64,000 bases of DNA from NCBI GenBank assembly GCA_015501595.1, contig JADNRX010000131.1, forward strand, positions 1-64,000. Direction: 5' to 3'. The translations under genes were made by a program, and so were the position numbers. Below, piece after piece: positions 27,403-53,914 of this stretch (position 1 is its first letter; each line of letters begins with the position of its first letter). The notes beneath the pieces are model-generated. The model did no database searches and was not told the origin of the DNA. It saw only the letters and a list, made by a program, of their open reading frames with translations. The DNA is from Hymenopellis radicata. Its lineage: Eukaryota; Basidiomycota; Agaricomycetes; Agaricales; Physalacriaceae.

Positions 27403-30400
27403 CTATCGCTGGTTCCTAGGACGGAATTCGCGTCCAGTCGGCTCGCTACCAACATCTCGAGCTATAACAAACCGCCCAGCTACAACCGTCACGGTGCCGA
27501 GCATGATCTTGTCCTTTATCTCCTTCGAAGCGGGCAGCGCTTTCAGGCGAGGATCATCCAAGCCACCTACATTCGGCCTGTCATTAACGACGAGACGTGC
27601 GCCTTTCCCTTGTGGGTGGCCATGCCTCGCGGCTTCTGCGCCATAGCGATGCACTTGGCCATCGGAGGAATACATGCTGTGGAAGATGCTGTAGCGTTTT
27701 CGCTCGCCTTTGTCGTCGTACCCAACGTAGAAGAGGTCCTGTAGTTTTCGTGGACGAAAGGCTGATCCGCGCGTCGCCGGAACCTTGGGCCAATCCTTGG
27801 GATTAGGACACTTGGTGTCGTTCCACTCGCTCGCTGCGATCTCGTCCAACGTCTCCATAAATTTTTCAAGAATGGGGTGCGCAGCGTACTTGAGTTTGCC
27901 CTGGGGAGTTCTCGGAAGCGGTCTGCACATCGTCGCCTCGTAGAGATCCGGAATCGGAATGTTTTTGAACTCCCACAGGTACAACTGTGGACGTGGTGTC
28001 CCCGCCTTGAACACCAACATCGCGTTGTCGATCCTGTTCCAGATTTGGGTCCGCACTTCCATGAAGGAGCGACCATATAACGCGCCGCTGCGAGGCAGCG
28101 CAACTTCCGATATGAGGTCTACGGCCGTCTGAGGCACATTTTCCGTCAGGTAGACCACGGAGGAAAACGGGCGGTTCACAAGGTGAGCTGATAACACGTC
28201 TCTGATCCATAAAACTGCAGGCTCTCTGTACTGGGCCGGCACTCTGTGAGTCTTCAATAGACTTCTTTCGACGATTTGACGATTGAACTACAACGAAAAC
28301 GTTGGACCTCGGTAATCGATATTAATGAGCAAGATGAACTGACCTTGGAGTGGACAGACGCTGTGGGAAACATAAAATAACAACGAGCGTGCTGCTGAAC
28401 GAGCCGCCACGAGAACAAGCCTTCCTCAACAAGATACTCTGCGAAATGGAGGGGCGTGATCTCAGTAACCTCTCTGTAAGAGTTGTCGGCAGAGATTGTA
28501 TCCATTGGGATACTCGAGTAGCTGAATCGGAGCCGCCGGACGCCCATTTCCAGCGGGACCTCCAACGTTTGGTTTAATAAGTCCGATGCTGCATCGTGCC
28601 CCCAGAAGAGGACGGCCCGTCCGTACAATGTACAGATAGTATTGAAGATACTCGGGGGCAGGCGAGAGAACGCGCCGCTGGTCTTCGAGCCTAAGGCTTT
28701 TCTCAGATCCTGGCTCGTCGCGTCGGGATTCTTCGTGATGAGCGAGAAGAAAACCTTGAGGTAGCGACGAGGAACATGGTGATACATAGTATCCCCATGG
28801 ATAGAACTATAACTGTAGAAAGGGCAAGACTCTTGGAGAAGGAGCATTGCTTTCTTGACATGCGGATCATCGACATTGTCGGTGCCGTATATCCACGCAA
28901 CCTGGGCCATTATTTGCACTCTATGTAGTCCGGAAACGCCTGAAAGATGACTGAGATCTTCGATGGTGAGAGACAGAGAAAGAGTCTCTGTAAAGGCAGG
29001 CGAGACACCAAAAAGAATCAGCCTTTGTATGACGGGTTTCGTCGTTACGGAATCCAGGGCATTGGCTAGGACGCTGTAGAAGCATGATTTGAAGCAGCTG
29101 GTGACAGCTTCGAGAGAAACATGTGTCCTGGGAGTGTTGGCAATGATATCTTCACTGTGCGCAAGGCGGGCTGCATTGTCGTAGCCATCAACCATTATTG
29201 CGATTTCAGTGTCTGATCCCGAGCACTTTCGCAACTCGTGTACATGCTCCTACGATAGCATATTTGAACACGGAGAATGGATGCCAAGAGAAGCGAGGAC
29301 GTACCAATACTCTTTTCAACGCTTCCCTGCCCGTGCATCCCTCAATGATGTCGCAGAGGGACGCCATTCCTGCAATCCTTTTGTATTTTTTCGCCGCAGC
29401 TTTCACTCCGTCATACACCGCTTCCTCTACGATTTCCTCGAATTTTTCTATACTCTTGCCCAGTGGCGTCACTTCACCAAATTGGAAATGAAGTATAAAC
29501 GATCGGGAATATAATGTGAATGATGGATTCTTTCTCAACCAATCCGATACGAAGAAGCTTCCAAACGTGCGCTGGAAAGCCTCTGCGTACTCGGGATGCA
29601 TATCGAGGAACGCCATGAGGGACGACCGGACGAAGTACAGGTCTTCTCTTGAGTCGGAGGAGACGTAGAAGCCCCACCCAACCGTCTCCCCGGCTATTGT
29701 AAAAGCACGTGAGATGATGGTCGTTTGGTCAACAACGACTGTGCGAATCTTCGTGGAGCAGAATGCTTCCTGGAGGTCTTTGGGAACAAGCTAAGCATGT
29801 AGCATTAAATGGAGCCGCTCATCAAACAAAAAGAATGACTCACATTGCATCCCTTGGGAGCCGTGGCTTCATTCCCGACCAGAATAATACGGGCTCGGGG
29901 AAATTCTTTGACTACGACAGGAAGGTTGTTCGCAACCTTGGTTTGCTTTGTGATCGGATTGATTTCGCCGCCGAGAGACGATGAGGCTTTGCGCTTGAGA
30001 GCATCGTTTGCCTCATTGCAGATGACAAACTGGGCGTAAGGACCGCTGGCGGATAGCTTGGCCGTGTATTGAGCTGGCACTGGCCAATCCTCCGCTGAAT
30101 AGAGCAGAGCATTGAAGGCAGGCGGATTAATATGAGACATTTCCCTCAGGTCATCACGAGCGAACTTATCCGAGAGATCCATCTGATATGCGTAGATGAA
30201 CTCGCGACTACCACGCCACGGGCATGGGCATGACTCTTGGTGTTGGCGATTCACTTCAGTAGAGATGTAGCTGGGGGTAATATCAGAGCCATTCAACGCG
30301 GTGACTCGATACCAAGGGTGGGGACAGGCGTAGTGATGCCCAGCAATAGCGACCATGAATGCAATAGGACTATCTGGGCCTGGGAGTTTCGGAGGTTTCG

Positions 30401-30410
30401 ACAACGACAT
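27403..30410 (-). CDS. Large protein with PD-(D/E)XK nuclease-like motif, copy 1 (module partner A1)
   Basis: Four exons join in frame: 29844-30410, 29305-29790, 28344-29249 and 27403-28287, 947 residues. The N-terminal region holds conserved EVNRQH and CPCPWRGSRE; the middle has SLCDIIEGCTGREALK. In the last exon, FMEVRTQ (Glu ~730), RIDNAM (Asp ~740) and LWEFKNI (Glu ~759, Lys ~761) give the E...D...ExK order of PD-(D/E)XK nucleases. All are kept in copy 2 at 50936 while the surrounding sequence differs. The nuclease reading is motif-based inference. It starts 426 bases from the divergent AAA-ATPase-like gene. An out-of-frame upstream ATG at 30526 opens a hydrophobic reading, MARRFVCCLSAFVL. 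Intact. Confidence 0.75.
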
Positions 30411-30836
30411 GGCGGCGGCGAGAGATGTAGTGGTGGATGGGGGGAAGCTGTGGGTGTCGGCGGTAGCAGAAGAAGACAGAATGGCAAAACAAAGGCACTG
30501 AGGCAGCAGACAAAGCGACGCGCCATTGTACAAAGTGCAGATAACGTGACGCGGTCAATGCGAGCCACGTTAGCTAGCCCCATTATGGCAGTCCCTGCAC
30601 GCCATTGTCTAGACAAGGACGCGCTAAGGTGCGAGACACAAGATAAGTGAAGAGATGTAGCCTCTGCCATGTCAAGGAGGAGGTCGACAAGTCGAAAGCT
30701 GAAGTCAAGAACAACGAAGACTAAATCGGACTGATGCGATCGAACGCGTTCGGCCATCATCGGCAAGTCACGTGGTCAAGCAACAAAGGGCGATCTGAGC
30801 TTTTGTCGTCTCTCTCTACAACCACCATCATCTACC
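30411..30836. promoter_or_regulatory. Bidirectional promoter of the A1 / ATPase-1 pair
   Basis: This stretch separates two divergent start codons. Compared by eye, it is nearly identical to the reverse complement of 50528-50935. It holds a palindromic E-box CACGTG at 30769-30774, conserved in copy 2, and a run GCGATCGAACGCGTTCGG beside it. bHLH-type factors commonly bind CACGTG; a link here is inferred. Confidence 0.7.
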
Positions 30837-32282
30837 ATGGCGTCTACAATCTCCAAGCTACCTTCTCTGGAACCATTCCTTAATTTGATTACGCCTACTA
30901 TTCGCTGTCAGGTCGACGAATCTGGCAGCGCGTCGCCTCACTCTGATGATAGTGGTAGGCTCTCATTGTTGACTGGCGCGTTGTTTGTCGACTAACAACT
31001 GAACAGATTACGCTTCGATCTCCTCCGGCGACTCTGGCGACGACAAAGAACAATCAAATCTATACTCTAGCCGCTCAGACGACGACCAAGAAGACTCCGA
31101 CTCTGCTTCAGAGTCTGAGCAAGAGTCCGACTCATGGGTCGGAGTGTTGCAAGCAGCTCCGGAGCGATATGAGAAGCCCTTACGCCTCAGCAAACATACA
31201 CGCGTCGGCCGTGTAGCTGGTGAAAGAGTGAGTTGTCGATGTTTACTGCTTCTCGCCTCGCTCAATCAATCGCAGCGCCTTCCTTACGCAGAGCAGGCCT
31301 GTTTTGATATTTTGGTCGGAACGCCGACAATATCTGTCCATAAAGTTTCCAAAATTCAGGAACTGTGTGCGATACAGTCTGACGAGTGCCGGCTTACCCT
31401 GCTTCGCCGTCCCTCTGGCTTTGGAAAAAGCAGCCTACTTGGAATGTTCATGTATGCCGTGGATGTAAACCACCGGGAAGAGTTTTCCCGGATATATGGA
31501 AAATTGCCAGCCCACGACTTAGACTTGGAGGACGATGTCCTGGTTCTTGACCTCAACCTCGATCGCCTGCCATCGGACGTCACGCTCTTTCGCGCCGGCC
31601 TTATTTCCTACTTGAATGGCGCTTTCCGGAGCTTCTTAATGCGTTACCGAGATCTTCTCCGCCTAACGCACCACGAAATCAACTCCCACATCTACAACTC
31701 TGGCCGTCCGGTATCAATCTTCTCATGGGTGATGGTACGGAGTCGACTGCAATGCTCGCTTATGTATCTCATATTTTTTCTTAGGATCTTGTCTATCGCC
31801 GTGGCTACAGCATTGCTATACTCATCGACAACCTGAATGCCCCCTTGATCAAGTCTACTGAGGACAACATTGATGACATCCGTGGCTTCCTCGATAGATA
31901 CCTCGTTGATCCCATTCAGGCGGCCATGCACGGGGGCCCCATCGTTGGAGGGGTCGCTGTCGCGTCGCCGCTCTCTGATGAGCCCCATTGGACTCGATTT
32001 CCGCCTGCGCAGGGTTATAGAGATAACCTTTTCGACGAGATTACCATTGATAAATCGGAGTGGAAGGCCGCTCACCGTGCATTGGGTTTCTCTCAGTCGG
32101 AAGTAGCTGCTCTTGCCGCAGAGTGCCTGCCCACTGAAGATGTAGAGCCTTTTATACAAGAGGTGGTGAGGACGCTGCATGCTTACGTCTCGGAGTACGA
32201 GATGTTGCGCACGTATAGCATGTCTGACGTGCTCGCCAAACTCAGGCAGCGGACTGGGCAGCGGGACAATCAATTTTGGTGA
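30837..32282 (+). CDS. AAA-ATPase-like protein (PF09820-type), copy 1
   Basis: Exons 30837-30954, 31007-31227, 31276-31734 and 31785-32282 join in frame, 431 residues. Exon 2 is a highly acidic Ser/Asp/Glu region. Exon 3 begins LPYAEQACFDIL and has a Walker A, RRPSGFGKSS (Lys ~164), followed by conserved DLNLDRLPSDV. Exon 4 has a Walker B-like AILIDN (Asp ~281) and then a likely C-terminal helical lid ending RTYSMSDVLAKLRQRTGQ. The arrangement matches the AAA-ATPase_like family, in which bacterial members are often joined to a PD-(D/E)XK domain; here no nuclease domain follows. The divergent neighbour may supply it. Substrate and role unknown. Appears intact. Confidence 0.8.
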
Positions 32283-32875
32283 TGAAAGGAGATAGTTTTT
32301 TCTTTCGTTCACCTCTACATGATTTCGTTGTCTTCGTTTGTCTGTTGCTATCGATTACGAGTTACTCGCCGCGGTATTACTTTCTACTACTACAAAGTCT
32401 AGTACATACAAGCATCCTCGCTCGGTAGGTAGGTAGGTAGAATCGCACAGTCTGAGAACGTCGTATTTGTTCATTGACATTAGTATCATTATGTATTTTA
32501 TTTCTCTCCAATCCTCGCGACCGTCCGAGATCCTGTCCACAAGACGAGGGCTACCCTTCCACCACCACCGTTAACGTTCCATTTAGCTACGAGCCATGAT
32601 TCACATCAACCCCCTCGCTAGTTGACCAAACCGCTGGATGGACCTGCAGAAGACACGGGAGGAAGCAGTGTAGGACTTGCACGGAAGTGTTAAAGTGGCG
32701 CCGGCACGCCTAAGTTTAGTGCCCATCTACGCTGCTGAAGGTGTGGAGGGGCAATTATCACACTTTGAGGAGTCTCGATCCGCATCTCGAAAAAGTGTCC
32801 AGGATCGGTGTTGCCGGATTGCCGGCTCTGTGCTTATCTCAACCAGTAACCACGATGAACAGGCTCGACCCCAGA
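32283..32875. other. Intergenic
   Basis: Holds the 3' end of the ATPase gene and the P450-2 promoter. A GGTA run repeated four times is at about 32424-32439. No gene seen. Confidence 0.5.
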
Positions 32876-32883
32876 TATATAAG
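32876..32883 (+). promoter_or_regulatory. TATA box of P450-2
   Basis: TATATAAG lies 46 bases before ATG at 32929. Confidence 0.55.
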
Positions 32884-32928
32884 TAAGAGTGTGAACACCT
32901 GCTGGATGATATCTCCGACCACTACAGT

Positions 32929-35230
32929 ATGATAGTTTCTTTGACTTTGAGCGTTACGCTCGCGTATGCGCTTTACTTCCTGTTCAAGCGGTCGCGGCGC
33001 GTATCCATCGCGCACATTCGCGGACCGCCATTTAGCTCGTGGTGGCACGGTGCGTTTTCGCTTTATACTAGAGCGCCATGAATCATCCTTAACGTTGTTC
33101 CAGGGAACTTGTACGATCTTGTCCGAGTACAAACCGCTGAGGTGCGCCATTTCTTATTATTGAACTCCGGACATGAGGTTAACCACAGGTTGAAGGCCGA
33201 CTTCAAATGGCGAGCCATGTACGGCGATGTCATACGCCTTCACGCTCCGCTTGGGGTGAGCTTAAGCTCCTGCACTCGACTTAAAGCTGACCGTATATTC
33301 CAGGAGGACCGTCTCCTAGTATCAGACCCGAAGGCCATCCAGTACATCTTCCATACTGCGCCGTATCGATTCCCTAAACCTCCTAGTCGACGGTCAATCT
33401 CCCGGACACTCTTCGGACCCGGTCTGACGAACGTTGATGGTGAGTGTCCCCCGCCCTGTTCTACCTCAATACCTATTGCCAACGCTGGATCCAGGTGACG
33501 ACCACAAGCGCGCGAGGAAGATCATGCTTCCAGGATTCATGGGATCAGAGGCCAAGTCGTCCCTTCCCATATTCTTTGGCTGCGCAGAGAAGGTAGGCAG
33601 ACAGGTCATTTTCCTGGGTCCCTTTTCATGATTGTAGATGGCGGAGCAATGGCAGGATATGATTGCATCAGACCCTGCCCAGTCGGCGGTTATTGACATT
33701 CCCAACTGGACATCTCGTGCGACGTTGGACGCGATTGGCCAAGGTGAGTACGAAGGTCTTTGCTGAGAACATTGCTAACCCTTTGTAGCTGCCTTCGATT
33801 ATCAGTTTGGTGCTCTGGATGATGCACAGAACGCATTAGCGAAAGCATACACCAATTTCTTGTAAGTGCCACGCCTTTTGACGTCAGGACCTTCGCTCAA
33901 GAACGCGTCCAGCTTCAAGGTTTTCGGTATCCCCAACAAAGCTGCCGTCTTGGTGTTTTCGGTTCTGGATAACCTCCCTGTGCGGTTGACGGACTTCTTT
34001 TTCACCCACTTCCCTCCGAAAAGGCTGCTAAGCGCTCTCGCTACCACGCGACTAGCGAACTCGGTTTCAAAGGATTTGGTGGAGGAGAAAAGCTCTGCGT
34101 TGCTTGGATGCAAAGGCAGGCGAGATATCATGAGTTTGTTGGGTATGACCTCTTCAGCTCTTCGATGTCGTTATTGAAAGAAACTATTGCAGTTAAAGCC
34201 AACCGCACGGAAGACCCAAAGGCGAAGCTCAGCGAAAAGGAGCTTCTGGCCCAGATGAAGTATGTGTAACTGTTCTAAATCGTATGTACACGAGCTCACC
34301 CTTGTACTTCACTAGCATCATCATCCTCGGCGGGCATGAGACGACGTCGAACACACTATCCTTCGTGCTAATCGAAATGTGCAAGAACCCCGATATGCAA
34401 AAGCGTGTTCGGCAAGAAATCCACTCCAAGGGCAACACGCGCGATTTCACTGCGGCGGATTTCGGCAGTATGCCGTATCTCACCGCATTCATCAAGGTCT
34501 GTTACAAGTGCGTTTTGGGGTGAACATGGCTTGATGAAGCTCTGCTGATAGGAAACTCTTCGCTTCCACCCTGTGGTCTACAATCTCTGGAGAATAGCGG
34601 GCGGAGACGATGTCATTCCGCTCATGTATCCCATTACCACGGAAACAGGCGAGGTCCTCACTGAGTTGCCCGTCCCCAAGGGTGTACACATCACGACGTC
34701 CATTGCGGCATACAATAGGTATGTGAGTTGTACTGACGGGACGGTGGGATGCTCACGTACTGTGGCACAATTAGGAATACAGATATCTTTGGCGAAGATG
34801 CGGATATCTTTAACCCAGACCGCTGGTTACGCGAATCGGAAGTGCAACGCAAGAATAAGGTGCCGCTTGGGGTGTACGCAAACTTGTGAGGTTCTTCCAC
34901 TCAGGCCCTAGAAATGTGTTCACATATCCTTAGATTCTCGTTCAGTGGTGGCGCCCGATCATGCATTGGCTGGCAATTTGCGTACGTCGTCTGAAAAACG
35001 TCTTAGCAAATCACTGATGATATAATATTTGGTGTTATAGGGTACTGGCATTGCACGCGTTCATGGTGGAACTGATCGGTCAGTTCGAGTTTGAGTTTGC
35101 AGACGTGACGCCGGAATCCATCCGACGCGAGGCTTGTAATATTATGACCCCGACATTGAGGGATGATGTGGCGAAAGGAGCTCAGCTACCGTTACGGGTC
35201 AGGCCGGCTACTAGAGGACAGGAGATGTGA
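32929..35230 (+). CDS. Cytochrome P450 (P450-2)
   Basis: The same fourteen-exon layout as P450-1, all splice sites found and in frame, stop TGA 35228-35230. Features: hydrophobic N-terminal anchor, HIRGPPFSSW hinge, oxygen-binding helix GGHETT (Gly for the usual Ala), ETLR, PDRW, and haem loop FSGGARSCIG. The acceptor of the intron before FKVFGIP had to be placed at CGTCCAG near 33913 for the frame to hold. It is the most diverged of the four intact-length P450s: C-terminal region and substrate-recognition stretches differ strongly. Microsomal monooxygenase, substrate unknown. 0.6 kb upstream of P450-3 in tandem. Confidence 0.88.
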
Positions 35231-35851
35231 TAGCCATATGTCACTGAGATACTTCAGATACTTCAGTAACCTGTACTACTATCAATGCGCGTCAGCCCTC
35301 TAGAGTGTTGTCCAAGCTGAGGTTCGATTCGGAGTTGCGGCCGAAAAAGGCAAGTCGCTTCTTGAGTTCGAACTCTCGGAACTCTGGTGAACCATAAACG
35401 TTTAAACTTGGACGCGGTTAAAATGACGGATCCGCTTCCGTGTAATACATTTGGCCGTCTTCTATGCGACTCTCTATCTCCACGCTCGAGGTGTCTGCAG
35501 ATGTTCGTATGTACCGTGCGCGACCCTTTAGCATTATACTCAACGAATTTTAGCTTGAGGGTTTTCTTGCCATACAGAGAGGCTGCCGAGGGAAGAAGTC
35601 TTATATCTCAATCCTGCATATCTCCCGTAGGTGCCTTCTGTTAATCATCTCAGTCTGACAGGTCACAGTTACGACGTCCTACATTCACATGGCGTTGATG
35701 ACACTCTATCTATGAGTCGCTCTGTCTTCAAATACTAGTCACAAGCGCATAGTGTCAGTGAAAAACGACACTTTCGTCCGTGATGACCGGTCTGGCGAAA
35801 GAATAGAAGAGGAGGTGTTCCCAGTCGATTGCCACTGGAGCTCCGTTTATC
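35231..35851. other. Intergenic between tandem P450 genes
   Basis: No gene supported. P450-3 promoter presumably at 35600-35850; I see no clear TATA box. A tRNA-like T-loop sequence GGTTCGATTC at about 35322 has no matching cloverleaf. Confidence 0.45.
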
Positions 35852-38155
35852 ATGGTCGCATACCCATTGCTAGCGTTTGCCTCTGCGGCACTGCTGTATC
35901 TGATTTACAAGCGTTTCCGACGACGCATCACTATCTCGCATGTGAGAGGCCCTCCAGTCGCCTCTTGGCTGTATGGTATGTTGACGGGAGGCGCAAAAGT
36001 GCAGTGATTGACATATTAAAGGAAACTGGCTGGAGCTGTTAGACTGTCCTGCGGCCGAGGTATCATCTAATCCTTCCTCGTCTATCTTGACTAATGTTCT
36101 CCAGACCGATTTCCGCTGGCAAGCAGAATTCGGAGGCATCGTACGAGTGAAGGCGCCGCTTGGGGTAATTTCAAGACGACCTTCCTACATTCTGACCATC
36201 TCATAATTCTCATTCAGGAGGACCGTCTGTTGATCACCGATCCCAAGGCCATCCAGTTCATTTATCACACAGCGAGCTATCGGTTTCCCAAGCCTCCAGG
36301 TCGTCAATGCATGGCGCGAACACTCTTTGGACCGGGATTGACAGTCATCGAGGGTAAATTTACCTTCAATATATCGCTTTTAGGACTGACACTATCATGT
36401 CGTTGCAGGGGATGACCACAGGCGGGCGCGAAAAGTTATGCTTCCTGGCTTTGGCGGTCCGGAATCTCGGGCGTACCTGCCTATCTTCTTTGGCGCTGCG
36501 GGAAAGGTAGCTACCTTCATCGCGTTCTCCTGATGAATATGGTGTCTGACTTGGGAAACTAGCTGGGACAGAAATGGCAGGATTTGATTACTGCAGAAGC
36601 AGACCAAACAGCTGTTGTATCCGTTCCATGGTGGATGTCGCGCGCAACTTTGGACGCTATCGGTGAAGGTTAGTCGCTTCTCGTCAGTGCAGAGAAGCAG
36701 CTTCCTGATCCATTTCATAGCCGCGTTCGACTATCAGTTTGGCGCTCTCGATGACGCGCAAAACGTCCTGTCTAAAATCTATACGAATCTATTGTATGCT
36801 CCTTCCTCGTCTACAAAGACATCGTTGACGATGGCGTAGCTTCAACATGTTTGGTCTTCCAACCAAGGGCTCTATACTGTCTTTTGGCATCGTAGATCAG
36901 ATTCCGACATGGGTCGTCGGGTTGATCATGAAATACTTGCCACCTCGACGGCTCTCTCCTTCTTTTAAGGCTTCCAATGTGTCGACGGCGGTATCGAAAA
37001 AGTTGGTCGACGAGAAGATGGCAGCCCTTCTGGCAGACAAGGGCCGGCGGGACGTTATGTCTTTATTAGGTTCGCATCTCATGCTTGTTCTGAACGGTTC
37101 ATCTCTCATTTGGAGATTTCCTAGTCAAAGCAAACAACTCGGAGAATCCGACGACCAGATTAGAGGAGAATGAACTAGTTGCACAGATGAAGTATGCATC
37201 GTCCTTTAATCCGCCTCGGTTGCTTAACAGGTCGTTCCAGTACTATAATTTTGGCGGGCCACGAGACTACGGCAAACACGCTCTCCTTCGTTTTCTATGA
37301 GCTGTGCAAGCAGCCGGAAATCCAGCACCGACTTCGCGCTGAGATTCGGTCCATGGGACAGAAGACGGATTATACTGCTTCTGACTTCGACAACATGCCC
37401 TATCTCACGGCTGTTGTCAAGGTTTAGTTGCCTCTATTGCCTACAAACGAGTCAATTAACGCGTCCTGCTATGTAGGAGACGCTTCGATTCCATCCCGTC
37501 ATTTATAACACGTTCAGAGTTGCTATAGGAGACGAAGTCCTCCCACTGCTTGATCCCATCACTACTGATGCGGGCCAAGTCCTGACTGAGCTACCCATCC
37601 CGAAGGGCACAAAGATTGTTACATCTATTGCAGCCTATAACAGGTCAGTAGCACTGTCCTTTGCGCCTCTGACTGTCCGACGCCCAACTAACTGCGTGTT
37701 TAGGAATAAAGCTATCTTTGGCGACGACGCCCACGTCTTCAATCCTGATCGTTGGCTGCGAGCGAAGCCTCCGAAGAGCCCTGTTTCCCTAGGCGTCTAT
37801 GGGAATCTGTAAGCACTCCCTGCTGATTTTCACCCCGGCTCGTCTCAATGCTCCCTAGATTCACTTTCGTAGGGGGTGCTCGTTCTTGCATCGGCTGGCG
37901 ATTTGCGTGCGCCCTTCCCTCTTGGTCTTAACGTCACTTCCAGGCTCAGTGTTACTGCTTTATAGCGTCTTGGAGTTACATGCCTTCCTCGTCGAGCTCG
38001 TCGGCAAGTTCGAATTCGAATTTGCCGAGCCAGGCATTGCCGGTGATTTCCGTCGTGAAGCGTGCACTATCATGACACCGACGTTGAGATCAGAGAGGGA
38101 GAAGGGCTCCCAGCTCCCCGTAAGAGTCAGCATAGCGCGCAGCGAGGAGACTTGA
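35852..38155 (+). CDS. Cytochrome P450 (P450-3)
   Basis: Fourteen exons in the common layout; every join keeps frame and the stop is TGA at 38153-38155. N-terminal anchor (MVAYPLLAFASAALLYL), HVRGPPVASW hinge, helix AGHETT, ETLR, PDRW and haem loop FVGGARSCIG. It is close to P450-1 and P450-4 in the exons compared, pointing to recent duplication. A hydroxylase-type microsomal enzyme of unknown substrate. Its 3' end faces the unknown-family gene at 38456. Confidence 0.9.
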
Positions 38156-38455
38156 TTACCATGTACATCAGACTTGACATTGAGGGCCTTACTACTAGTA
38201 CCACCAAAATAACCGGCCTCATTTCGAATGCAGAAGCTTTCCAACCCCATTACCTGTTTATCCTAAGCAATTAATTGATTGAGTTCCTTCTGGTGTTACC
38301 GAGTGGACCAACAACCATCATGATACAATAGTAAAACAACACTAAAGAGCTAAGAGTACACCAACATGGTACAATACAAATCTAGTTGTAGGTATACAAA
38401 TCCTGATAGCGAGAGAGTAATAATAATGATAAGTAGTATGTAGCACCTAAAGAAG

Positions 38456-39646
38456 TCAAATGGTATCACCAGAGTCCGAAAGATGCGCACGCTTGTTTAC
38501 ATAGCCAACTTGCTCCTGTAGACCTGTCTCGCCACCATCTACATCCGTGTCCCGCCCGCGCTTCCCTAACAAAGGCTTGTTTTCCTGATCCGAAGCTGCG
38601 TCGACGGTTGCAATGCTTGTACGACTGACCGATGTCTCGGGAGTGTTGTCAACACACAGAGGAATGGCAGGAGAAAGAGCATCGTCAGAGATGACGGGAG
38701 ACAAGGGTGATACGATGCTGGATGTGTTCTCGGCAAGGAAATCGCAGGGCAGCGATGAGACGCCGACGGAGGAAGGCGCAGGTGACTCAGGCACAAGAAT
38801 TTGAACGTTGTTGGGCACGGCTGGCGAGGACGCCTTAGGCTGAACGTCTTCTACTAGTTCGGCGCGCGCACTACAACTGTCTTCGGAAGCCGCCTCCTCA
38901 GCCGCTGAGTCTCCGTCGGATGCAATAATGTGTGGTTTCGTAGAGGGAACAGTTAGGGAAAGAAAAGGATCTGAAGGATTGGTGGTTGCTTGTAGTGTTG
39001 CGTCCTCCTCGTTTGTAGGCTTCATGTCGGTGGAAGTATCGATCGTCGAAAGGCTCGATGAGGTTAATGCGCCGTCCTTTGTCTCCTTCCTTCCTGCCGA
39101 TACCAGAGGAGGTACACCTTCCTTCTCGTCTCGTGGCAGCGGGGCCTTTGTCACAGTGACTGCCAAGTGCTTGTTGAGTATATGCTCATCCGCACCTTCT
39201 GGCACGATGCCCAACGTCAAATACACGCAGAGCTCGCTCACGCGCGCATACCAATCGTCGACGAGGCCATCAGGGAGGCCTGCATAACGCGCCTCGGCAT
39301 CTTTGAGAATAGAAGTGCGTGAAGGGCTTGCCGCTAGAGCAACTAGCGCAACAGCAAACTCTCGATCACAGAGGAGCGGACGTCCTGCGTGGGTTAGACG
39401 ACGGTTGTCGTCCAAAGTCGCGGTACGAATGTACTGGTAAACGATGGTACCACGGGCTGCAACGACGGGCCGCCCAAGTTTACGGTTTATGACGGATGCA
39501 CGGCTATCTTCGGTAAGAAAGAGATTGGCGTTGTTCGCATTGGACGTCCAAGCGTCAACGAGGAGGCGGGCGTGATATAGCAAATTCGCGTCTGATATAC
39601 ACGGAAGTAGTGGCTGCGTCGAGATCTCGGTTGAAGGCGAAGACAT
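38456..39646 (-). CDS. Unknown family, copy 2 (intact)
   Basis: One exon of 397 residues from ATG at 39646 (MSSPSTEISTQ); the frame remains open upstream to 39703. It matches copy 1 at 17476-19027 along its length: CISDANLLYHARLLVDAWTS, LTHAGRPLLCDREFAVAL, WYARVSELCVYLTLGIVPEG, then a Ser/Thr/Pro-rich disordered region and a KR-rich tail (LLGKRGRDTDVDGG, YVNKRAHLSDS) like a nuclear signal. No domain is recognised. A start in common with copy 1 was chosen because alignment begins there. The upstream conserved block may contain another exon. Nothing suggests damage. Confidence 0.65.
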   Translation of the reverse strand: MSSPSTEISTQPLLPCISDANLLYHARLLVDAWTSNANNANLFLTEDSRASVINRKLGRPVVAARGTIVYQYIRTATLDDNRRLTHAGRPLLCDREFAVALVALAASPSRTSILKDAEARYAGLPDGLVDDWYARVSELCVYLTLGIVPEGADEHILNKHLAVTVTKAPLPRDEKEGVPPLVSAGRKETKDGALTSSSLSTIDTSTDMKPTNEEDATLQATTNPSDPFLSLTVPSTKPHIIASDGDSAAEEAASEDSCSARAELVEDVQPKASSPAVPNNVQILVPESPAPSSVGVSSLPCDFLAENTSSIVSPLSPVISDDALSPAIPLCVDNTPETSVSRTSIATVDAASDQENKPLLGKRGRDTDVDGGETGLQEQVGYVNKRAHLSDSGDTI

Positions 39647-41099
39647 GACTGGTCCGAGAAGTAGTGTTCTATGTACTAAAAAGATAAGTTTTGAAGTCGG
39701 CAAGAGGCCTCAGGGCACGCACAAGGAGAGGAGAAAAGGCGAGATGTCGTAGGACGGGCGACGCAATGATGGTGGTAGAAGAAAGAGGTGCGCTGCTGAC
39801 CAAACTCCTCCAAACAGAGCTGTAAGCCGATCGTCATTTCGCAGTTTGTTTCCTCGCCGCCACATAGATATCGTGACAACGCCATGCAGTAGCTGTTTGT
39901 CAAGCTGTAAGTATTATTGAGCAGGAAGTCTGCGGTTTTCCATTATCCAATCCTACTTATAACTTTGGCTTGCCAGAGCCTTCCGACCTTCGAAGCTGCT
40001 TTCTCATTGGCAGCCTGCTGGACGCGTTTTAGGACACAATTATGGATCAAAGCAACACAGCGTGATCTCTAGAACCGAAAGACGCGTAAATTGGAGAGAT
40101 TTTTCCCATAGAACTTCATGTTGATGCTCGAAGCCCCGTCTCCGCCGATCGAGTTTTCTTTTCCTTCGCTATTCCCTCCTATTGAATGAGAAGTATAACT
40201 CTCCTCCTCACTTATATTACAAAACAGCTAACACTAGCAAAATTCAGCCCATATACTATCCGAGGGACAACGGACGTGGGCTGTTAATGAGTTGTCATGC
40301 GGTGTAATGGTCTAAGTGAATGGACTTACCCACCGTGGTGATAGTAGCCCACACATCCTGTCTTTCATGCAAACAAGCTATGCACAAACTAATCCAACAA
40401 CCTACATTTTTGCCATTCCTATTATTATATCTGCACAGCGAAAGACTAGTAAATGAGAGAGTCGTTAATGCAAGTCGTCGGAGTCCCCGTGGTGATGGCG
40501 GCCCACACATCTTGTCTTTTATGCAAACAGACAACAACCCTCATGATAGAATAAGTAGTCGAACCAGTATCGTAGAGGTAAAAGTACACTGGCACGTTTG
40601 AACCAGAGCTAGACAAGCACCGGGGAAAGACCAGCGTAGCGATTCCTGGAAGGAAGGCATCCCAGCGATTGTCGCTTCAACCGCTGAGTTCTGCACCACG
40701 TGTGTGTCCGGTCACACGTTGCCGCCGTTGACGTTTTGAACGCCACCGCGACTCTCGCGCCTCAGGACGGTGGTGGGTTTTGGACACTGGCCCTGCCATG
40801 GAAACCAGCATCCTTGTACGGACAACGGTCACGAGACGCCCCGAAGAGCACCGCGCGCGGCACTTCAAAAGCACAGGCTAAGCACATACTTGCATATGCC
40901 CCGTATACAAACAGTGTAACAGCTACACACCAATACACCACTTCTTACACCTCGCCGCCATCCTGGTCCTCACCCCCTGGTGCCACCACCCTTTTCACAT
41001 TGTATTCAATCCCCTTCCACCAATACGACACCACCTAGCCCCTCAAGACATGTCGTGCGGCCACGTCACCACCCAAGCACCCGAGAGTCTCCGAATGCT
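39647..41099. other. 5' flank of copy 2 and intergenic DNA
   Basis: 39750-39920 and 40210-40385 are the counterparts of blocks upstream of copy 1. A second partial repeat of GTGGTGATGGCGGCCCACACATC at about 40489-40511 echoes the one near 40335. 40620-41099 shows no gene. Confidence 0.45.
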
Positions 41100-41108
41100 G
41101 CCCGAGAC

Positions 41109-41977
41109 TAGCCAGGTAACCTGGCCTACTAGTATGAGCAAGCGTCGATACAGTAGGCCAGGTAAATCGGAGTTTAAATTTGGCGTGAACATGTCGTTGG
41201 AAATTCGCACAGATCGGTCCGAGTTCCTATATGCCGTATATGGAAATAAAATCTTTCCGCCACTCGCAGCGAGCTTGTCTATGGTGTCCACACTTCCCTC
41301 TGATGTGCCAATTGACAAGAGTACATATATTCCACTAGGTCTCAACTATTTACTGATAAAAAAACATAACTAGATGCGCCTCCGGTATGCACGCCACCCC
41401 CAGGCGATGTATCATGTTCTACACGCATCCGCGTGCATAGGCGACTTCCAATTGCGCCTGTTGACGCGGACGACTTCCCAAACCAGCTCTGCCCCAGCCT
41501 CTTGGCCGATAGCCTCTCAGCTAGCTGTCTTGTAGACGTTGTAATCCCAGTTTTCAACAATAAGATGATGTTCCAGAAAGTTGGAGGAGTTGGAAGGCTG
41601 ATTCTAGATGGACCAGATCGACAAGTCTCGTCGGAAACGGCTGCATAGCGTGTTGATGAACGTGTTGGGCTACCGGTGGACAGATTGAGGTTTCAACGGG
41701 ACATAACGGGGTTTTAAAGTCATTACTTACCCGGAATATATATTTTATCATATCTAAAGTCATTCTGGCATACTTGTGCATGCTGGAAACGGCCTGGATA
41801 CTGCTACAACGAACTTCGCCTTGAAGGCTACACATTTTATTTCCATATACGGCATATAGGAACTCGGACCGATCTGTGCGAATTTCCAACGACATGTTCA
41901 CGCCAAATTTAAACTCCGATTTACCTGGCCTACTGTATCGACGCTTGCTCATACTAGTAGGCCAGGTTACCTGGCTA
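41109..41977. mobile_element. MITE with 144-base inverted repeats, Mutator-like
   Basis: The first 144 bases (41109-41252, beginning TAGCCAGGTAACCTGG) are the exact reverse complement of 41834-41977 as read by eye. A perfect 9-base duplication, GCCCGAGAC, flanks it (41100-41108, 41978-41986). Long terminal repeats and a 9-base duplication fit Mutator-like elements best, though hAT with 8 bases overlapping cannot be excluded. 869 bases, no transposase. Identity of the arms suggests recent activity. Confidence 0.9.
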
Positions 41978-42134
41978 GCCCGAGACGACCCGCACGAATG
42001 CGACCACCCCACCACAGAGCCCCCACAGTAGTCTCTAGCCACACGAGCAGCCGAGGCGCAGAAACAGAAACACCATCCCCGCAGCTGATGTCCAGACCAA
42101 CAAATCCCTCGCTAGCAACAGACCGCCCCCGTAA

Positions 42135-43549: not shown

Positions 43550-43627
43550 GCCATACTAAATCAATGAATATAACATTTCCACCTTTCTCGGGTACTTATC
43601 TCGAATAGAAATCAAATGTGGCTGATC

Positions 43628-45699: not shown

Positions 45700-45780
45700 C
45701 TAGCGCTCAATCTTCTTCTGTAGTTCGACGTGCACGTCAGACATGCTATACGTGCTTGGCGAATGATATATCAAATCGAA
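45700..45780 (-). pseudogene. C-terminal scrap of the AAA-ATPase-like gene
   Basis: The reading SPSTYSMSDVHVELQKKIE matches the last ~20 residues of the ATPase family (RTYSMSDVLAKLRQRTGQ in copy 1). Nothing of the core is present. Confidence 0.6.
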
Positions 45781-46056
45781 AGACTGCAGCGAATCGAATC
45801 GAATTTCGCTCCTTTTGAGAGAGCTGTGCTTGGAAGTCGGGAGAGTCTGAAGCGATATCGCTTTATGGACGCGCGGCGTAATGCAAATTGAGAAAGAGAT
45901 ATGATAGTAATGCACAAATGGTGCATGATGTACAGTAATTTGGAGAAAGTTTGTATGTAGGATAGAAAACCGAAAAAGCGCGCCGAGTAGGTTGTATCAG
46001 GTCATCAGTAGCAATGAGCACGCCTAGATATCACGGAGGAAAGGAGAGAGAAACAT

Positions 46057-46400
46057 TTACTTCAGCGGCAACGAGAGCAACGGTTTCTGCCCAGTCCGCT
46101 TCCGTAGTTGGGCGAGCACGCCAGACATGCTGTATGTGCTCGGCAGATTTAAAGCCGAATCAAACACATCAACATCGTCCACAAAGGGTTTAACATCTTC
46201 AGCAGAGAGCCTTTCAAGCGACCGGGTTTCCGATATTTCGCTGGAAAAGCTTCCAACTCTTCTGTCCATGACTCGGGCTCGACTTCAGAATCGGAAGATG
46301 AGTCAGAGTCCTTCTGCTCGTCGCTGGAGGACGAGCCCGATTGTTCGTTGTCGTCTGAGTCGCAGGGCCACACTGCGGTTAATGATGAGAATCCCGAAAT
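46057..46400 (-). pseudogene. AAA-ATPase-like gene with its core deleted
   Basis: The acidic exon (SSSDEQKDSDSSSDSEVEPE, then AFPAKYRKPGR) is joined directly to the C-terminal part (LSAEDVKPFVDDVDV, STYSMSGVLAQLRKRTGQ), with a frame change at the junction. Walker A and B are both missing. The 3' flank resembles that of ATPase-2 at 49099, so this is probably a deletion derivative of a copy like it. Confidence 0.75.
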
Positions 46401-47014: not shown

Positions 47015-48277
47015 ATGCTGCCCGAAAACCGTCCCCCATTCTCCCCACTCGCATTCCTGTTCTGCATCCTCTGCATCGCTCTATCCTTGATCATCCGCCC
47101 AACATTCGCCCGCTCAACTTTGTTCTTCCCAACTGCCGCCTCCGCCATCTATCTCCTCACGACCACCACCGGCAGCGCGCCGCACGACGATATGATCGGC
47201 TTCGTATACGTCTCTTGCATCATGACCGCGTCGGACTACATGCTCATCTCCGAGCCCCAGCGCGACTTCCGACGCGTCGGCCAACGGGAGGAGAGCATCG
47301 AGACTGCGCCATTGTGGGATCGCGTCAAGTGGGGGTTCAAGCTGTGGTCGAGCATCCGCGGGATAGGGTGGCAACATGAGCCCAATGTGTTTCCGCGTAG
47401 AGCAGCGCCTGGAACGCCCAGGGTGTACTTTATTGGGAGGCAGATCGTCGGGATTTTGGGATGGATGATAGTATGGGATTTGGCCACGATGTATGGTCGG
47501 CAGTGCCCTGCATTTGCGAAGGAGGGGATATCGTTCAGAGAGCGACCGTGGTTCTGGAGGACCGTCGACATGTTCGTTTGGGTTCTGATGCCGATGGCAA
47601 ACGCAAATATCTCCGTGGCGGTCTTTAGTGTAGTTTCGGTGACGATGAAGCTCTCACGTCCGGAGGACTGGACGTCGTCGATTGGAAAATGGTCTGACGC
47701 GTATACATTGAGAAGGTTTTGGGGGTAAGTGGGTCTTGGTCTCAGATGAACGTTATTAATGCTGCCCATAGCCGCGTCTGGCACCAGTATCTGCGAAAGG
47801 TAAGCATGATCCTACCACAATGAAAATACAACTACTCACCCGACTTAGTTCCTCTCCGCACACGGGCAATTTGTTACCCGACGCGTCCTTAATCTTCAAC
47901 CTGGCACAAAAGCATCCTCATACGTCCAGCTATACGTCGCGTTCATCCTGTCGGCCCTTATGCATTGGTTGAGCGAAGTCACCCAGCTGTATGACCATTG
48001 GAGCCAAAGCACCGCCTCTATATTCTTCCCACTGCAAGCTGTCGGGATCACTTTTGAGGACGGTGTCATTGCCATCGCACAAAAATGGGGTATAAAGGCG
48101 CCAGAAGGTGCTCCACCACTATACTTGCGCGCAGTTGGGTATCTCTGGACATATTTGTGGTTTGCGATGGTAGGGCCGATATGGTGGGATGCGCTGCATA
48201 GAGCAGGTTTTTTGGAAGCGCTTTACATGCCGAAAAGCCTAATCCTTGGGGTATGGAAGGGGAAGTGGGAATATTGA
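47015..48277 (+). CDS. Wax synthase-like membrane O-acyltransferase (MBOAT_2)
   Basis: Exons 47015-47724, 47772-47799 (28 bases) and 47849-48277 give 388 residues. Several hydrophobic segments start at the N-terminus (FSPLAFLFCILCIALSLII). The family signature runs across the small exon: RRFWGRVWHQYLRKFLSA; a later ALMHWLSEVTQLY holds the candidate active-site His. Relatives include plant-type wax synthases and fungal acetyltransferases that modify terpenoids. Acts in a membrane, likely ER, transferring an acyl group from acyl-CoA to an alcohol. With four P450s in the window a tailoring role in a metabolite pathway is possible, but this is inference. Start at first ATG of the exon. Intact. 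Confidence 0.85.
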
Positions 48278-49098
48278 CAGTCTCGCGTTTCATGAATGCC
48301 ACATGCGTTATTCAATGGACACGTCGAAGCATTTTCTTCAGCCTGGAGATGATGGTGGTTCCAGTTCAAGTAGCGATCGCCGTCGGGTGACCTGGGCGAT
48401 CATTTGGTCACGTTTGTTGTGGCGTCCTCAGATTCTGACTCCTAAAATCAGAGCGTCCTAAAGAGCTTTGTGGGCAATTGCATACGTAGTCTAGAGGATC
48501 AAGGACCGGCAGACTGGGATCAGATGAAGCATCGAAAGAAACTCACTCCGAGTAGCTCTGAGTCGAGGCTTTCGGGTCTTCCTGCGACGATGGCGGGACT
48601 GGAGCGATATCAACATCCTCCATCCTGCGTCGCCTTGTCCTTGAATTCAGAAGACCCGTCGGAATCCGCTTGCACTGCTGTGTACGCCGTGCCTGATAGC
48701 GCATTCGTCGGAACTTCGTGGTCAGAAAGAAACAGAAAGAGACCTAACAAATTCGAACACAAGAAAGACAGAGGCCGGGAGGCGTGGGCGTATCGTCCAT
48801 GTCATCCAACAAGTCTCAAGTTTAAGTAATTCCCTGCGACAGAGCGGTACTCGTCTTGCGATAGGGTTAAGACGTATGCGCCATGGCTCGTTGGGACGCG
48901 CACTTCATAGTGATGAAAAGATAATGCACAAATTGTCCAGAATGTACAGTACAGTAAGTATAGGAAGCTTATTATATGTAGACCTTGTAATGATGAAAAC
49001 CCGTAATAGCGCGACGAGTGGAATCGATAGCAATGTACAAAAAATGTACGGTAATCACATAGAGATCACGAAGGAAACGGAAGAAAGGAACCTTTACT
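48278..49098. other. Intergenic
   Basis: No gene supported. A 119-residue plus-strand frame at 48470-48829 has no recognisable domain. About 48940-49098 resembles 45930-46060, the shared 3' flank of ATPase copies. Confidence 0.45.
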
Positions 49099-50527
49099 TC
49101 AGGGCAATGGGACTAACGGTTCGGAGGCCGACTGCCCAGTCCGCTTCCGTAGTTCATCGAGCACACCAGACATGCTGTAGGTTCTCGGCAAATGGAATTT
49201 CGAGTCGAACGCATCAACCCTCCCAACGACATCGTTCACAAAGGGCTCGACATCTTCAGCGGGGAGCCTTTCTGCGGTAAGGGCAGAGATTTCTGACTTG
49301 GTGAAGCCCAAACAGCGATTGACCACATCCGACTCGGATCGATCGATGGTAATGTTGTCGAAGACGTGGGTTCTATAGCTTGAACCAGGGGGAAATGGAG
49401 TCCAGTCTGGCTCATGCGAGAGCGGTGAAGCGACAGCAACACCTCCAATGACACTGCCCTTGCGTATAGCCGCTTCAATGGGGGCAACGAGCAAGCGATC
49501 AAGAACGCTGCGGATGTCTTCGATGTTGTCCTCTGTGGACTTCATGAGAGGAGCATTCAAGTTGTCGATGAGTATAACAACACGAGTGTTGCAGCTTATG
49601 GCAAGATTCTAGGAAACGGATGAGTTTTGAAATCAACAGCGAAAGCAAGGACAGGTACGCACCATCACCCATGTGAAGTTGGAGCAATGCCTGCCTAAGT
49701 ACATCCGGTGGTTGATTTCGTGTTGGTTGAGGTCGAGAAGGTCCCGGTAACGCGACAAGAAACTGCCTAAAGCGGTATTCATGTATGCGATGAGGCTAGC
49801 GCGAAAGGCGGCGATGTCCGACGAAAGGTTGTCCAGGTTCAGGTAAAGAACGAGAACATCGTCGTCGAGTGGGGAGTAATGCGGGAACACTTGACAGAAT
49901 TCTTCGCGATGATTGATGTCCAAGATGTTAATCATCATGGAAAGGAGGCTTGTCTTTCCAAAGCCTGGAGGGCGGCGAATCAAGGTGAGGCGGTCGTCTA
50001 GCGACTGATCACAAAGCCTCTTAATTTGAGGTATTTTGCTGACGAAGATGGTTGGTGTTTTTGTGAGTATATCGAAAGTGGCCGGTCTTGCGTGAGGAAG
50101 GCGCTACGATGAATTAAGAATAGGCAATCTCTAAAGGACGTAGACAACTCACCCTTTCGCCAGACACACGTCCTACGCGTATATGCTTGCTTAGGCGAGC
50201 GGGCTTGCGATATTTCGCTGGAAAGGTCTCTAACTCTTCTGTCCATGACTCGGACTCGACTTCGGAATCTTCTTGGTCGTCGCCTGAATAGCTGGAGGAC
50301 AGGTCCGACTGGTCTTTGTCGTCTTCCGAGTCGCTGGAAGAGGAACCCGAAGAGTAATCTGTTCAGTTGTTAGTCGACTAACAACATGGCAGTCAACAAT
50401 GAGAGCCTACCACTATCATCAGAGTGAGGAGACGCGCTGCCAGATTCGGGACCTGACAGCGAATAGTAGGCGTAATCAAATTGAGGAATGGTTCCAGAGA
50501 AGGTAGCTTGGAGATTGTAGACGCCAT
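49099..50527 (-). CDS. AAA-ATPase-like protein (PF09820-type), copy 2, frameshift in exon 1
   Basis: Exons as in copy 1: 50411-50527, 50153-50358, 49663-50103 and 49099-49608. Walker A is RRPPGFGKTS, Walker B-like VVILIDN, and the end is STYSMSGVL-like followed by LRKRTGQ. Exon 1 is 117 bases here against 118 in copy 1: a one-base loss after CAGGTC shifts the frame from the shared ATG, so that start no longer reaches the acidic exon. An upstream ATG at 50594 is in the right frame and could give an alternative N-terminus. All later joins are in frame. Divergent from the large gene at 50936. Either slightly damaged or using a different start. Confidence 0.7.
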
Positions 50528-50935
50528 GGTAGATGATGGTGGTTGTAGAGAGAGAGGACAAAAGCTCAGATCGCCCTTTCGTTGTTCTGACCACGTGACT
50601 TGCCGATGATGGCCGAACGCGTTCGATCGCATCAGTCCGATTTAGTCTTCGTTGTTCTTGACTTCAGCTTTCACTTGTCGACCTCCTCCACGACATGTCA
50701 GAGGCTACATCTCTTCACTTATCTTGTGTCTCGCACCTTAGCGCGTCCTCGTTCAGACAATGGCGTGCAGGGACTGCCTGGGGGTCTAGGTAACGTGGCT
50801 CGCATTGACCGCGTCACGTTATCTGCACTTTGTACAATGGCGCGTCGCTTTGTCTGCTGCCTCAGTGCCTTTGTTTTGTCATTCCGTCTTCTCTTACTAC
50901 TACCAACATCCCCCACTCCACCTATCGCCGTCACC
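50528..50935. promoter_or_regulatory. Bidirectional promoter of the A2 / ATPase-2 pair
   Basis: 408 bases between the two shared start codons, near-identical to the reverse complement of 30411-30836. The E-box CACGTG is at 50592-50597. In this copy ATG at 50837 is in frame with the large gene (33 extra codons, MARRFVCCLSAFVL... a hydrophobic leader), whereas in copy 1 the same ATG is out of frame. Confidence 0.7.
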
Positions 50936-53914
50936 ATGTCACAGTCCGAACCCCCACAGTCCACCGACCATCCTATCTCGTTCGTAGTTGCTGCTGCAGG
51001 TCACACCCATGGCATAGCCTGCATGTCGTACGACGTTGTTGCCCAGAACCACTCCCAAATCACCCCTAGCTTCATTGCAGACGAAGTGAACCGCCAGCAT
51101 GGGGCGAAATGTCGTTGTCCATGGCATGGTAGCCGAAACTTAATCTATGCATTTCCGGTGGACGTCAATGACTTGTTTGTCTCTGACAGGCTAAAGGATA
51201 TGTCCTTTTCCAACCCGCCCAATCCGCATGCTTTGATTCCCTCCCTAAAGGACTGGGCGCTAGCTCCTGGCTTTACTGCCAGTCTTCCCGCCAATCAGGC
51301 CCATTTTATCATTTGTCGGGAGCCGAATGATGCTCTCAAGCGAAAGGCCTCGTCCTCCTTCCACGAGGAACAGCGTTCGACAACCAAGCAAAGCAAGTTG
51401 GCCGATGACTCCCAAGTTGAAGTGACAAAGTTCGGCAACCGGAGAATATTCCAAATCGGAGCTAAGTCCACTCCTCCCGGACGATGTATAGTGAGTTCGA
51501 ATATATCCTGTTGGCAACTACTAACCTTACCTGCTCAGTTTGTTCCGACAGATCTTTATGGAGCGTTCCGCCCGACCAAGCGGCGAATAGTGTTTGCAGA
51601 TTCAACGAACATCATTGCGAGCGCTTTCGACATCGCCGGTGACACAATTGGATGGGGTTTCTATACTTCTTCCGAATCGTTGCTAGACTCGCAGTTTCAC
51701 CAGTCGTCCTTCATAGCTTTTTTTGACGCCCATCCAAAGTATGCATCCGCGTTCCGGCGCATCTTTGGTGAATCCTTCGTAGAAGCCTGGATGGAGATAA
51801 CTTCAGACTCTGCACTTCATTCTCGATCGTTTGTACTAGTCTTCACGTTTAACGACATCACACCACTGGACATCGATGCTAGGAAGTTCGAGGATGACGT
51901 CGAGCAAGCGGTGTATACTGGAGTCGTCGCCGCTGCCAGTAAATACAGAGAGTTTCCTGGAATGGAATCTCTGAGCGAGCTCATTGAGGGCTGTACGGGC
52001 AGCCAAGCGCTGAAACTAGTTTTGGTACGTCAAAACGTTCTTCTATGTTTCGCTCACTGTTCTAATTCCGCTGCTTATCACAGTGCCATATCGCTAAGAA
52101 GCGCTCATCAGGCGTATTCGACATTGATATCGTCGTCATGGTTGAGGCATACGACGATGCAGCCCGGATTGCGCATAGTGCTGCTATCACCGGCGTGCCG
52201 GAAGACCATGTTCCTCTCGGAGTTGTCACCAATCTCTTCAAGACATGCTTCTACTCTATTCTATCCATGTTAGATCCCATAGACAACAGGCCTGTCATAC
52301 AAAGGCTCATTCTTCAAGGCGTTTCTCCCGCTTTTACGGAGAATCTCCGTCTGTCGTTGCCAGTTAAGGATCTCAGCGGTATTCCCGGCGTTCCAGGTCT
52401 TACTTCGGGACAAATAGAGGCCCAGGTTGCTGTCATTCTTGGTGTCGACAGTACTGTCGACCCTCGTGTCAAGCATGCGATCTCTGCTCTCGCACAATCT
52501 TGTCCGGGCTACAGTTACACAGACAACAGTACGGCGGATATCACATATAGTTTCCCCAGGAAATATCTCAATGCCTACTTCTCCACCATCGCAGAAAACC
52601 CGAACGCGACTTCCCAGGACATTAAGAATGCTCTTACCTCTCATAGAGTGAAGGCTTCTATCATGCCGGAGAGCGTCTTGGCCGCGGCCAGCAAATTGTA
52701 CGGTCGGGGAATCCAATTCTGGGACAACAGTACGGCTTCAGATCTGCTGAACGAGAAGCTGCAGGTACGAGTAGCACAGGGCTGCCGGCGTCGACTCAGT
52801 TATCGTAACATCCCGAAGGATGTGGTCACTGCTGACTCTGGCATCGAGATCACCGAGATTACGCCACTTCATGTCGCTCAGTTTCTCTTTGAGGAAGGCG
52901 CACTCACTTGGCGTGCCGGCTTGGACAAGCGTTGTTGTTACAAATTCCCTAGCGTTGCCATGAAGAACCAGGTCTGTCCCTTTTCTGCAAACTTCTCGAA
53001 CCAATGACTCCTAACTTCTGCATCAGTTTATTCGCGACGTCGTTGAACGAAGTTTACTCAGGACTTTCAAATTTCCCGCGAGGTATAAAGAGCCTGCAGA
53101 TCTTTGGCTTAAAGGAGTGTTGTCGAACCACTTCAAGAACCGTCCGCTAACCTCGGTGGTCCACATAGTAGAGAATGTGCCGCAGACGGCGTTGGACATC
53201 ATAGCGGAGGTATCGCTGCCTAGCAGCGGCGAACTGTGTGGCCACTCTTTCATGGAACTCAAAACGCAGCTGGGGAAGAGGATCGACAATGCCATGTTTA
53301 TCTACAAAGGTCCTGAGCCCCGACGTCCGCGGGCGTCCTTTTGGGAGTTGAAGAGTATTCCGATCGGGGACATCCTAGAGGCTACCCTGTGCTGCACTCT
53401 TCCCAGGGAGTCGGATAACAGCTTATCGTACTCTGCATTCCCTCGCATAGAGACGTTTATGGAGGACCTGAAAGCCTTTCCCGCATCCGAATGGGATGCG
53501 AAAGACTACTCGGAGAATCCCAAGCATTGGCCGACGCTCCCGACCGCGCGTGCCACGGGATGGAAGCCAACGAAGTTGAAGGATCTATTCTACTGGGGAT
53601 ACGATAATTCGGATCCAAAGAAAAGAGGCGTTCGAGTGAAGTACAGTATCTTCAACGTGATATTCCAGTCGGATATACAGGTGTGGCAATACGGCAAGGA
53701 AGTCGCTAAAGATAGCAAACCGTCCAAAAAGGGCGGCTTTCCAGATGTGGGCGGTTTGCGGGATGAACGCGTTCGAGCTCTGCCCCCGTCAAAGACGGTC
53801 AACGACAGTATTGACCTCGGGATTGTCATCCTTGTAGCCGGACGTTTTATCATCACAAGGAACGTCGGCAGTGTAAAGACTCAACGGGAATTTCGTATTA
53901 TGACCCAGCGTTAA
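50936..53914 (+). CDS. Large protein with PD-(D/E)XK nuclease-like motif, copy 2 (module partner A2)
   Basis: Exons 50936-51490, 51539-52024, 52084-52971 and 53027-53914, 938 residues, all in frame with the same intron positions as copy 1. Shared landmarks: EVNRQH, CPWHGSRN, SLSELIEGCTGSQALK, then in the last exon FMELKTQ (Glu ~720), RIDNAM (Asp ~730), FWELKSI (Glu ~750, Lys ~752). A run rich in Lys/Arg/Ser at NDALKRKASSS resembles a nuclear signal and is kept in both. The two copies look roughly half identical by eye, yet the motif and splice sites are preserved, implying selection. If ATG at 50837 is used, a hydrophobic leader is added. Function not known; nuclease call is inference. Confidence 0.75.

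Follow-up and report, generated by a model that had tools for sequence, protein, structure and literature searches.

Contig C347 (134,119 bp; GenBank JADNRX010000131.1) of the saprotrophic mushroom Hymenopellis radicata carries, within its initial 64 kb (here called the window), two head-to-head gene pairs, each composed of a small gene for a P-loop ATPase and a large gene whose product ends in a nuclease-like domain (Table 1). A preliminary description made from the sequence alone had placed the same two genes at both sites, the second pair inverted, with identical intron layouts. Hand-made gene models with GT-AG introns locate both pairs in this arrangement, each of the genes being divided into four exons at corresponding splice sites. 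Three of the four read through, the exception being the ATPase gene of pair 2, in which exon 1 has 117 rather than 118 bases and is thus shifted by one base; the public annotation (P0004) takes a different splice at this point. An alternative acceptor for exon 3 of the first large gene gives a product of 947 instead of 939 amino acids.

The small protein of pair 1 (copy 1) has an acidic, serine-rich N terminus, a P-loop (RRPSGFGKSS) and a Walker B-like segment (ILIDNLNAP), and the P-loop of copy 2 reads RRPPGFGKTS. The P-loop lysine (GFGK[ST]/GYGKT) is kept in the ATPases of all four C347 pairs, including both window copies, and in those of C807 and both C526 loci. The earlier likening of this protein to family PF09820 agrees with the Pfam profile, for which the copy-1 model (28.7 bits) and proteins P0004 (31.8), P0006 (36.8) and P0007 (33.6) all score above the curated cut-off of 26.1 bits. 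The protein is also homologous to the ATPase domain of bacterial PF09820 proteins (expectation value (E) 1.6e-15), and its fold matches TnsC, the AAA+ regulator that in Tn7 is separate from TnsA, a nuclease of the restriction-endonuclease fold. The fungal pairs share with TnsC and TnsA this separation of regulator and nuclease, but we set aside a transposon: similarity between copies 1 and 2 ends at about the stop codons and no shared ends were seen, although transposase genes were not searched for. Related PF09820 ATPases with a cysteine-bearing N-terminal exon (MA[AP]QPDT...) occur on C929 (several), C1307 and C854.

The large protein had been described as a PD-(D/E)XK-like protein of ~940 residues. 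Its nuclease signature stands, since E, D and ExK are present in seven of eight aligned large proteins, with C1162b lacking D and K; this alignment leaves out copy 3 because of its frameshifts, C807, which is nearly the same as copy 4, and the incomplete C526b, C410 and C252. However, the protein also holds a second domain that the description had missed. This domain, in the middle of the protein, is paralogous to the partner ATPase but diverged from it (profile-profile E 1.5e-8; reversed control 0.37), and all large proteins aligned lack a P-loop; the PF09820 profile itself finds no match in the large protein up to E 1. A PD-(D/E)XK fold for the C-terminal domain and a ubiquitin-like fold for the N-terminal header are each weakly supported. 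PF08011 (PDDEXK_9) gave no match to four nuclease exons up to E 10, and its search of the fungus's own genome was silent, as was the control for that search. A PDB sequence search with the large protein gave no match, and Pfam scans found no kinase family in it and no NB-ARC or leucine-rich repeat (LRR) match in either protein. The Pfam candidates for the large protein all fell below cut-off (NAGidase, E 0.01-0.057; BRK, 0.08; SPMIP8, 0.11), and PADLOC PtuA1 (E 0.048 against P0011) offered nothing useful. The C212 nuclease exon matched PADLOC PDC-S11 (E 9e-4, 16.9 bits), a model that carries no description and is noted only.

Bacterial PF09820 relatives carry a P-loop ATPase and an ExK-bearing end on one chain of ~560 residues, in line with the prokaryotic fusion that the preliminary description had mentioned. 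The fungal proteins share with them the homologous ATPase domain and the placement of the ATPase ahead of the nuclease. The D and ExK of the large protein are in register with the bacterial end and the first E is not, and the bacterial helix-turn-helix-like region between ATPase and nuclease aligns to the large protein at E 0.59 only. A full-length bacterial profile gives no significant match to the full large protein (E 0.16 and 0.42), lower values being obtained domain by domain only. In contrast to the bacterial arrangement, P-loop and nuclease reside here on separate proteins encoded by two genes, and the large protein has an extra N-terminal part. Because the small protein carries the P-loop and the large protein carries the nuclease together with a dead ATPase, duplication of a one-chain ancestor followed by opposite losses would be the simplest history, and a bacterial-type ATPase-nuclease thus seems to have been divided between two genes whose losses complement each other.

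The domain order of the large protein also resembles that of many Crinklers, which in the available text of one survey run from a ubiquitin-like header through a nucleoside triphosphatase (NTPase) and a helix-turn-helix to a restriction endonuclease (PMC5289972). This likeness would suit a secreted, Crinkler-like effector that targets other organisms, as would an in-frame upstream ATG in copy 2 (50838-50935, plus strand) that would give the large protein a hydrophobic, signal-peptide-like stretch. We consider such an effector very unlikely. Among copies 1-3 the upstream stretch keeps the reading frame in copy 2 alone, and it is therefore probably 5′ untranslated. The Crinkler header family PF20147 matched neither two header exons of the large family nor whole proteins, and an own-genome Crinkler search was silent, as was its control. 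Unlike Crinklers, moreover, the large protein has an NTPase without a P-loop and a header of weakly supported fold, and a separate ATPase gene stands alongside.

The pair recurs beyond the window. C347 carries four pairs (at 27, 49, 107 and 128 kb; copies 1 to 4), of which the third (107.4-112.1 kb) is broken in both genes. A fifth, on C807, matches the fourth at ~98.7% identity in two long alignments that overlap and at 91.7% in a third; one extra base is inserted in exon 2 of its large gene. Distant large-gene relatives, ~25-31% identical in aligned stretches, lie on C212, C1162 (two), C410, C526 (two) and C1165. At eight of the 12 large-gene loci viewed with their flanks (four on C347, C807, two on C1162, and C410), the large gene stands head to head with an ATPase gene. 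The ATPase lies downstream on the same strand at both C526 loci, at the second of which the large gene was seen as nuclease-exon fragments only; C1165 has no ATPase at E 0.01 within the 8 kb examined, and the C212 locus is cut by a contig end ~500 bp upstream. Outside this count are three short C1162 fragments, C512, and C252, which yielded no more than pieces of an ATPase and the tail of a nuclease. The head-to-head loci are not independent, as copies 2 and 3, copy 4 and C807, and C1162a, C1162b and C410 are duplicates, and they therefore represent about four head-to-head lineages.

Co-occurrence in other species, which the preliminary description had put forward as a check, probably extends to Mucidula mucida, where large protein P0012 and ATPase P0008 are both listed with a 19,642-bp contig and thus probably share it, head-to-head orientation not being visible there. 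Protein searches, each scoring ~8,000 candidates, returned matches in H. radicata and M. mucida only, which does not amount to absence elsewhere.

The pairs reflect more than chance: among copies 1, 2 and 4, the ratio of nonsynonymous to synonymous substitution (dN/dS) is 0.22-0.23 over 923-928 codons of the large gene and 0.24-0.27 over 374-379 codons of ATPase exons 2-4, values that are rough because synonymous sites are near saturation. Between copy 4 and C807 the ATPase gives 0.38 on few differences, and the value for the large gene (0.55) is spoiled by a frameshift and was not used. These ratios bear on the possibility that the copies are functionless, decaying remnants of domesticated ATPase-nucleases whose promoters are conserved by ectopic gene conversion only. 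Decay would account for the frameshifts in several copies, for the ATPase relics and for the loss of the P-loop lysine and of nuclease residues in the C1162 clade. It is nevertheless quite improbable in our judgement, given low dN/dS in both genes, models of copies 1 and 4 that read through, and E, D and ExK intact in seven of eight rows.

Sequence identity is distributed unevenly along the copies. Among copies 1-3, identity is 92-99%, depending on the part, in a ~570-bp core that spans the divergent promoter together with the first exon and intron of the ATPase gene (94-98% for the shared promoter alone); the remaining coding exons of copy 1 share 57-73% identity with those of copies 2 and 3. 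Copy 4 has a diverged promoter, with 66-68% identity across the 179-190 columns that can be aligned. Copies 2 and 3 are recent duplicates within a 7-kb inverted segmental duplication, yet their promoter cores are 96% identical, compared with 98% for copies 1 and 3. Between copies 2 and 3, synonymous differences are lowest in the nuclease exon (0.14), followed by the acidic exon (0.18) and the header exon (0.25), and reach 0.41-0.47 in the exons of the degenerate ATPase and 0.31-0.61 in those of the ATPase gene. From a point within large exon 3 across the promoter and the ATPase gene, C1162a and C1162b share 93-100% identity, which falls to 61-89% towards the nuclease end; no diverged islands separate copy 4 from C807. 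Given such sharp switches in identity, gene conversion around the promoter would fit these copies. The ATPase domains of both genes look like the old parts of copies 2 and 3, a pattern that would fit matched specificity, although it comes from a single comparison in which one copy (copy 3) is broken.

Matched partners invite comparison with paired nucleotide-binding leucine-rich-repeat receptors (NLRs) of plants, which, in the part of the source available, are mostly arranged head to head with shared promoter sequence, the helper P-loop alone mattering in two studied pairs and both P-loops in a third (PMC9528088). The fungal pairs have in common with them the orientation, a short common intergenic region, one seemingly P-loop-dependent partner and another with an additional domain. 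Linked ATPases of this kind might form a recognition pair in which a foreign or non-self signal frees the nuclease inside the cell. We think this unlikely: no LRR or other further Pfam domain is matched in either protein, and the additional domain is nuclease-like, unlike the case in plants. Diverged islands are confined to the one copy pair with a broken member and are missing between copy 4 and C807, the C1162 clade has diverged in the nuclease half instead, and its ATPases lack the P-loop lysine.

The nuclease-like protein with its separable partner could also belong to a selfish toxin-antidote system or spore killer, in which the large protein would cut DNA and kill, the acidic ATPase would neutralise it, and tight linkage would join the two. 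Local multiplication, broken copies and ATPase relics without an adjoining large gene are in keeping with such an element, and Spok offers a precedent: in the available account, Spok3 from Podospora cannot kill without its predicted PD-(D/E)XK nuclease and requires a different domain to confer resistance (PMC6660238). Spok thus likewise joins a predicted nuclease to a second domain in a fungal protein, but that domain is a kinase and one gene encodes both, whereas the large protein here has a degenerate ATPase and no kinase family. Low dN/dS in both genes, rather than in the antidote candidate alone, is a further point against a toxin-antidote system, which we hold to be doubtful.

For Crinkler/RHS-type (CR) proteins with NTPase and restriction-endonuclease domains, the available text has the restriction endonuclease believed to be toxic and the NTPase believed to be regulatory (PMC5289972). 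We take the CR, Spok and NLR parallels as likeness in logic rather than as membership. With about as much doubt as confidence, we favour a two-component nuclease under ATPase control, derived from a one-chain ATPase-nuclease and likely set in conflict. The ancestor would have been a one-chain ATPase and PD-(D/E)XK protein of the bacterial kind that became, in the fungal lineage, two genes mostly transcribed from one promoter. The small protein would have retained the P-loop without the nuclease; the large protein would have retained the nuclease, lost its P-loop and come to bear an N-terminal header that is possibly ubiquitin-like. The ATPase domains of the two proteins most likely pair, and by binding and hydrolysing nucleotide the small protein may keep its partner's nuclease on nucleic acid, load it there or release it. 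The setting would likely be cell or genome conflict, whether intracellular defence, non-self recognition or killing. The split ATPase-nuclease first proposed is borne out in part, in its two genes, recurrent pairing and conserved E, D and ExK; that the proteins bind each other, that the large one cuts under control of the ATPase and that the pair serves in conflict is inferred.

Weighing against a two-component nuclease controlled in this way, the P-loop lysine is lost (GLGQT/GFGQR) in the ATPases of both C1162 loci and C410 and in two of C252, so that the division of labour between the small and large proteins is not maintained everywhere. A more specific and unlikely version is a two-gene recognition system that arose by complementary degeneration, in which a motor and a pseudo-ATPase executioner nuclease would be matched pairwise, their promoter homogenised by gene conversion and their ATPase domains co-diversifying.

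Dead ATPase copies had been reported nearby, and relics were located at two places in the window, with a third indicated by a DNA repeat only (Table 1). A gene family of ~2.2 kb, ~66% identical, is interleaved with the pairs (23930-26197, 33302-38139 and 56416-58649); the open frame 33082-33495, near the start of one member, has no Pfam match at E 0.01. Two sets of diverged duplicates, each ~65% identical, lie at 14766-17012 and 62564-64000, the latter running past the window end, and at 18460-19790 and 39091-40390. A perfect 145-bp inverted repeat has arms at 41108-41252 and 41834-41978, 581 bp apart. Outside the window, C347 contains a direct duplication of ~10.5 kb (65566-76044 and 78630-89040, 96.5% identity), part of which recurs once more at 91.6-94.4 kb. 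Rfam gave no match within the window.

Table 1 Features of the ATPase and large-gene pairs and related sequences (C347 coordinates unless stated)
Feature	Position	Strand	Details
Large gene, copy 1	30410-27403	minus	939 amino acids in model; annotated P0011, 947 amino acids
Large gene, copy 1, exons	30410-29844, 29790-29305, 29225-28344, 28287-27403	minus	
ATPase, copy 1	30837-32282	plus	431 amino acids; annotated differently as P0003, 433 amino acids
ATPase, copy 1, exons	30837-30954, 31007-31227, 31276-31734, 31785-32282	plus	
ATPase, copy 2 (P0004)	50527-49099	minus	exons 50527-50411, 50358-50153, 50103-49663, 49608-49099
Large gene, copy 2	50936-53914	plus	938 amino acids; end-to-end alignment with copy 1
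Large gene, copy 2, exons	50936-51490, 51539-52024, 52084-52971, 53027-53914	plus	
Shared divergent promoter, ATPase exon 1 and intron 1, pair 1	30443-31010		
Shared divergent promoter with ATPase exon 1, pair 2	50355-50911		94% identical to 30440-31010 (DNA search)
Pair 4	128.6-133.2 kb		
Large protein, copy 1, domains	residues ~13-134, ~200-460, ~700-940		possible ubiquitin-like header; degenerate ATPase; PD-(D/E)XK-like
Nuclease residues	E730, D740, E759, K761		P0011 numbering
Relic of ATPase exons 1-2	20052-20305	minus	
Relic of ATPase, acidic part and C terminus	46084-46379	minus	
Possible relic of ATPase 3′ end	45703-45789		DNA repeat only, 64% identity over 87 bases
Cysteine-exon PF09820 ATPase family	C929, C1307, C854		L001, L002, L005, L007, L008

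Proteins that join an NTPase to a nuclease make up a large group among the conflict proteins of bacteria and eukaryotes, and the available text describes them as one chain (PMC5289972). In the open-licence literature, as judged by titles and abstract openings, no description was found of such a protein encoded by a divergent gene pair that has degenerated in complementary ways. What is new here is the degenerate ATPase domain in the large protein and the divergent split with complementary losses. This split separates the control part, an active-looking ATPase, from the cutting part, a pseudo-ATPase nuclease, and makes their interplay testable gene by gene. For mushrooms, the pairs provide a concrete candidate, present in several copies, for an anti-element or non-self system. 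If the pairs do form a two-gene recognition system, they would be an independently evolved nuclease counterpart of paired NLRs and a case for the possible origin of head-to-head recognition pairs.

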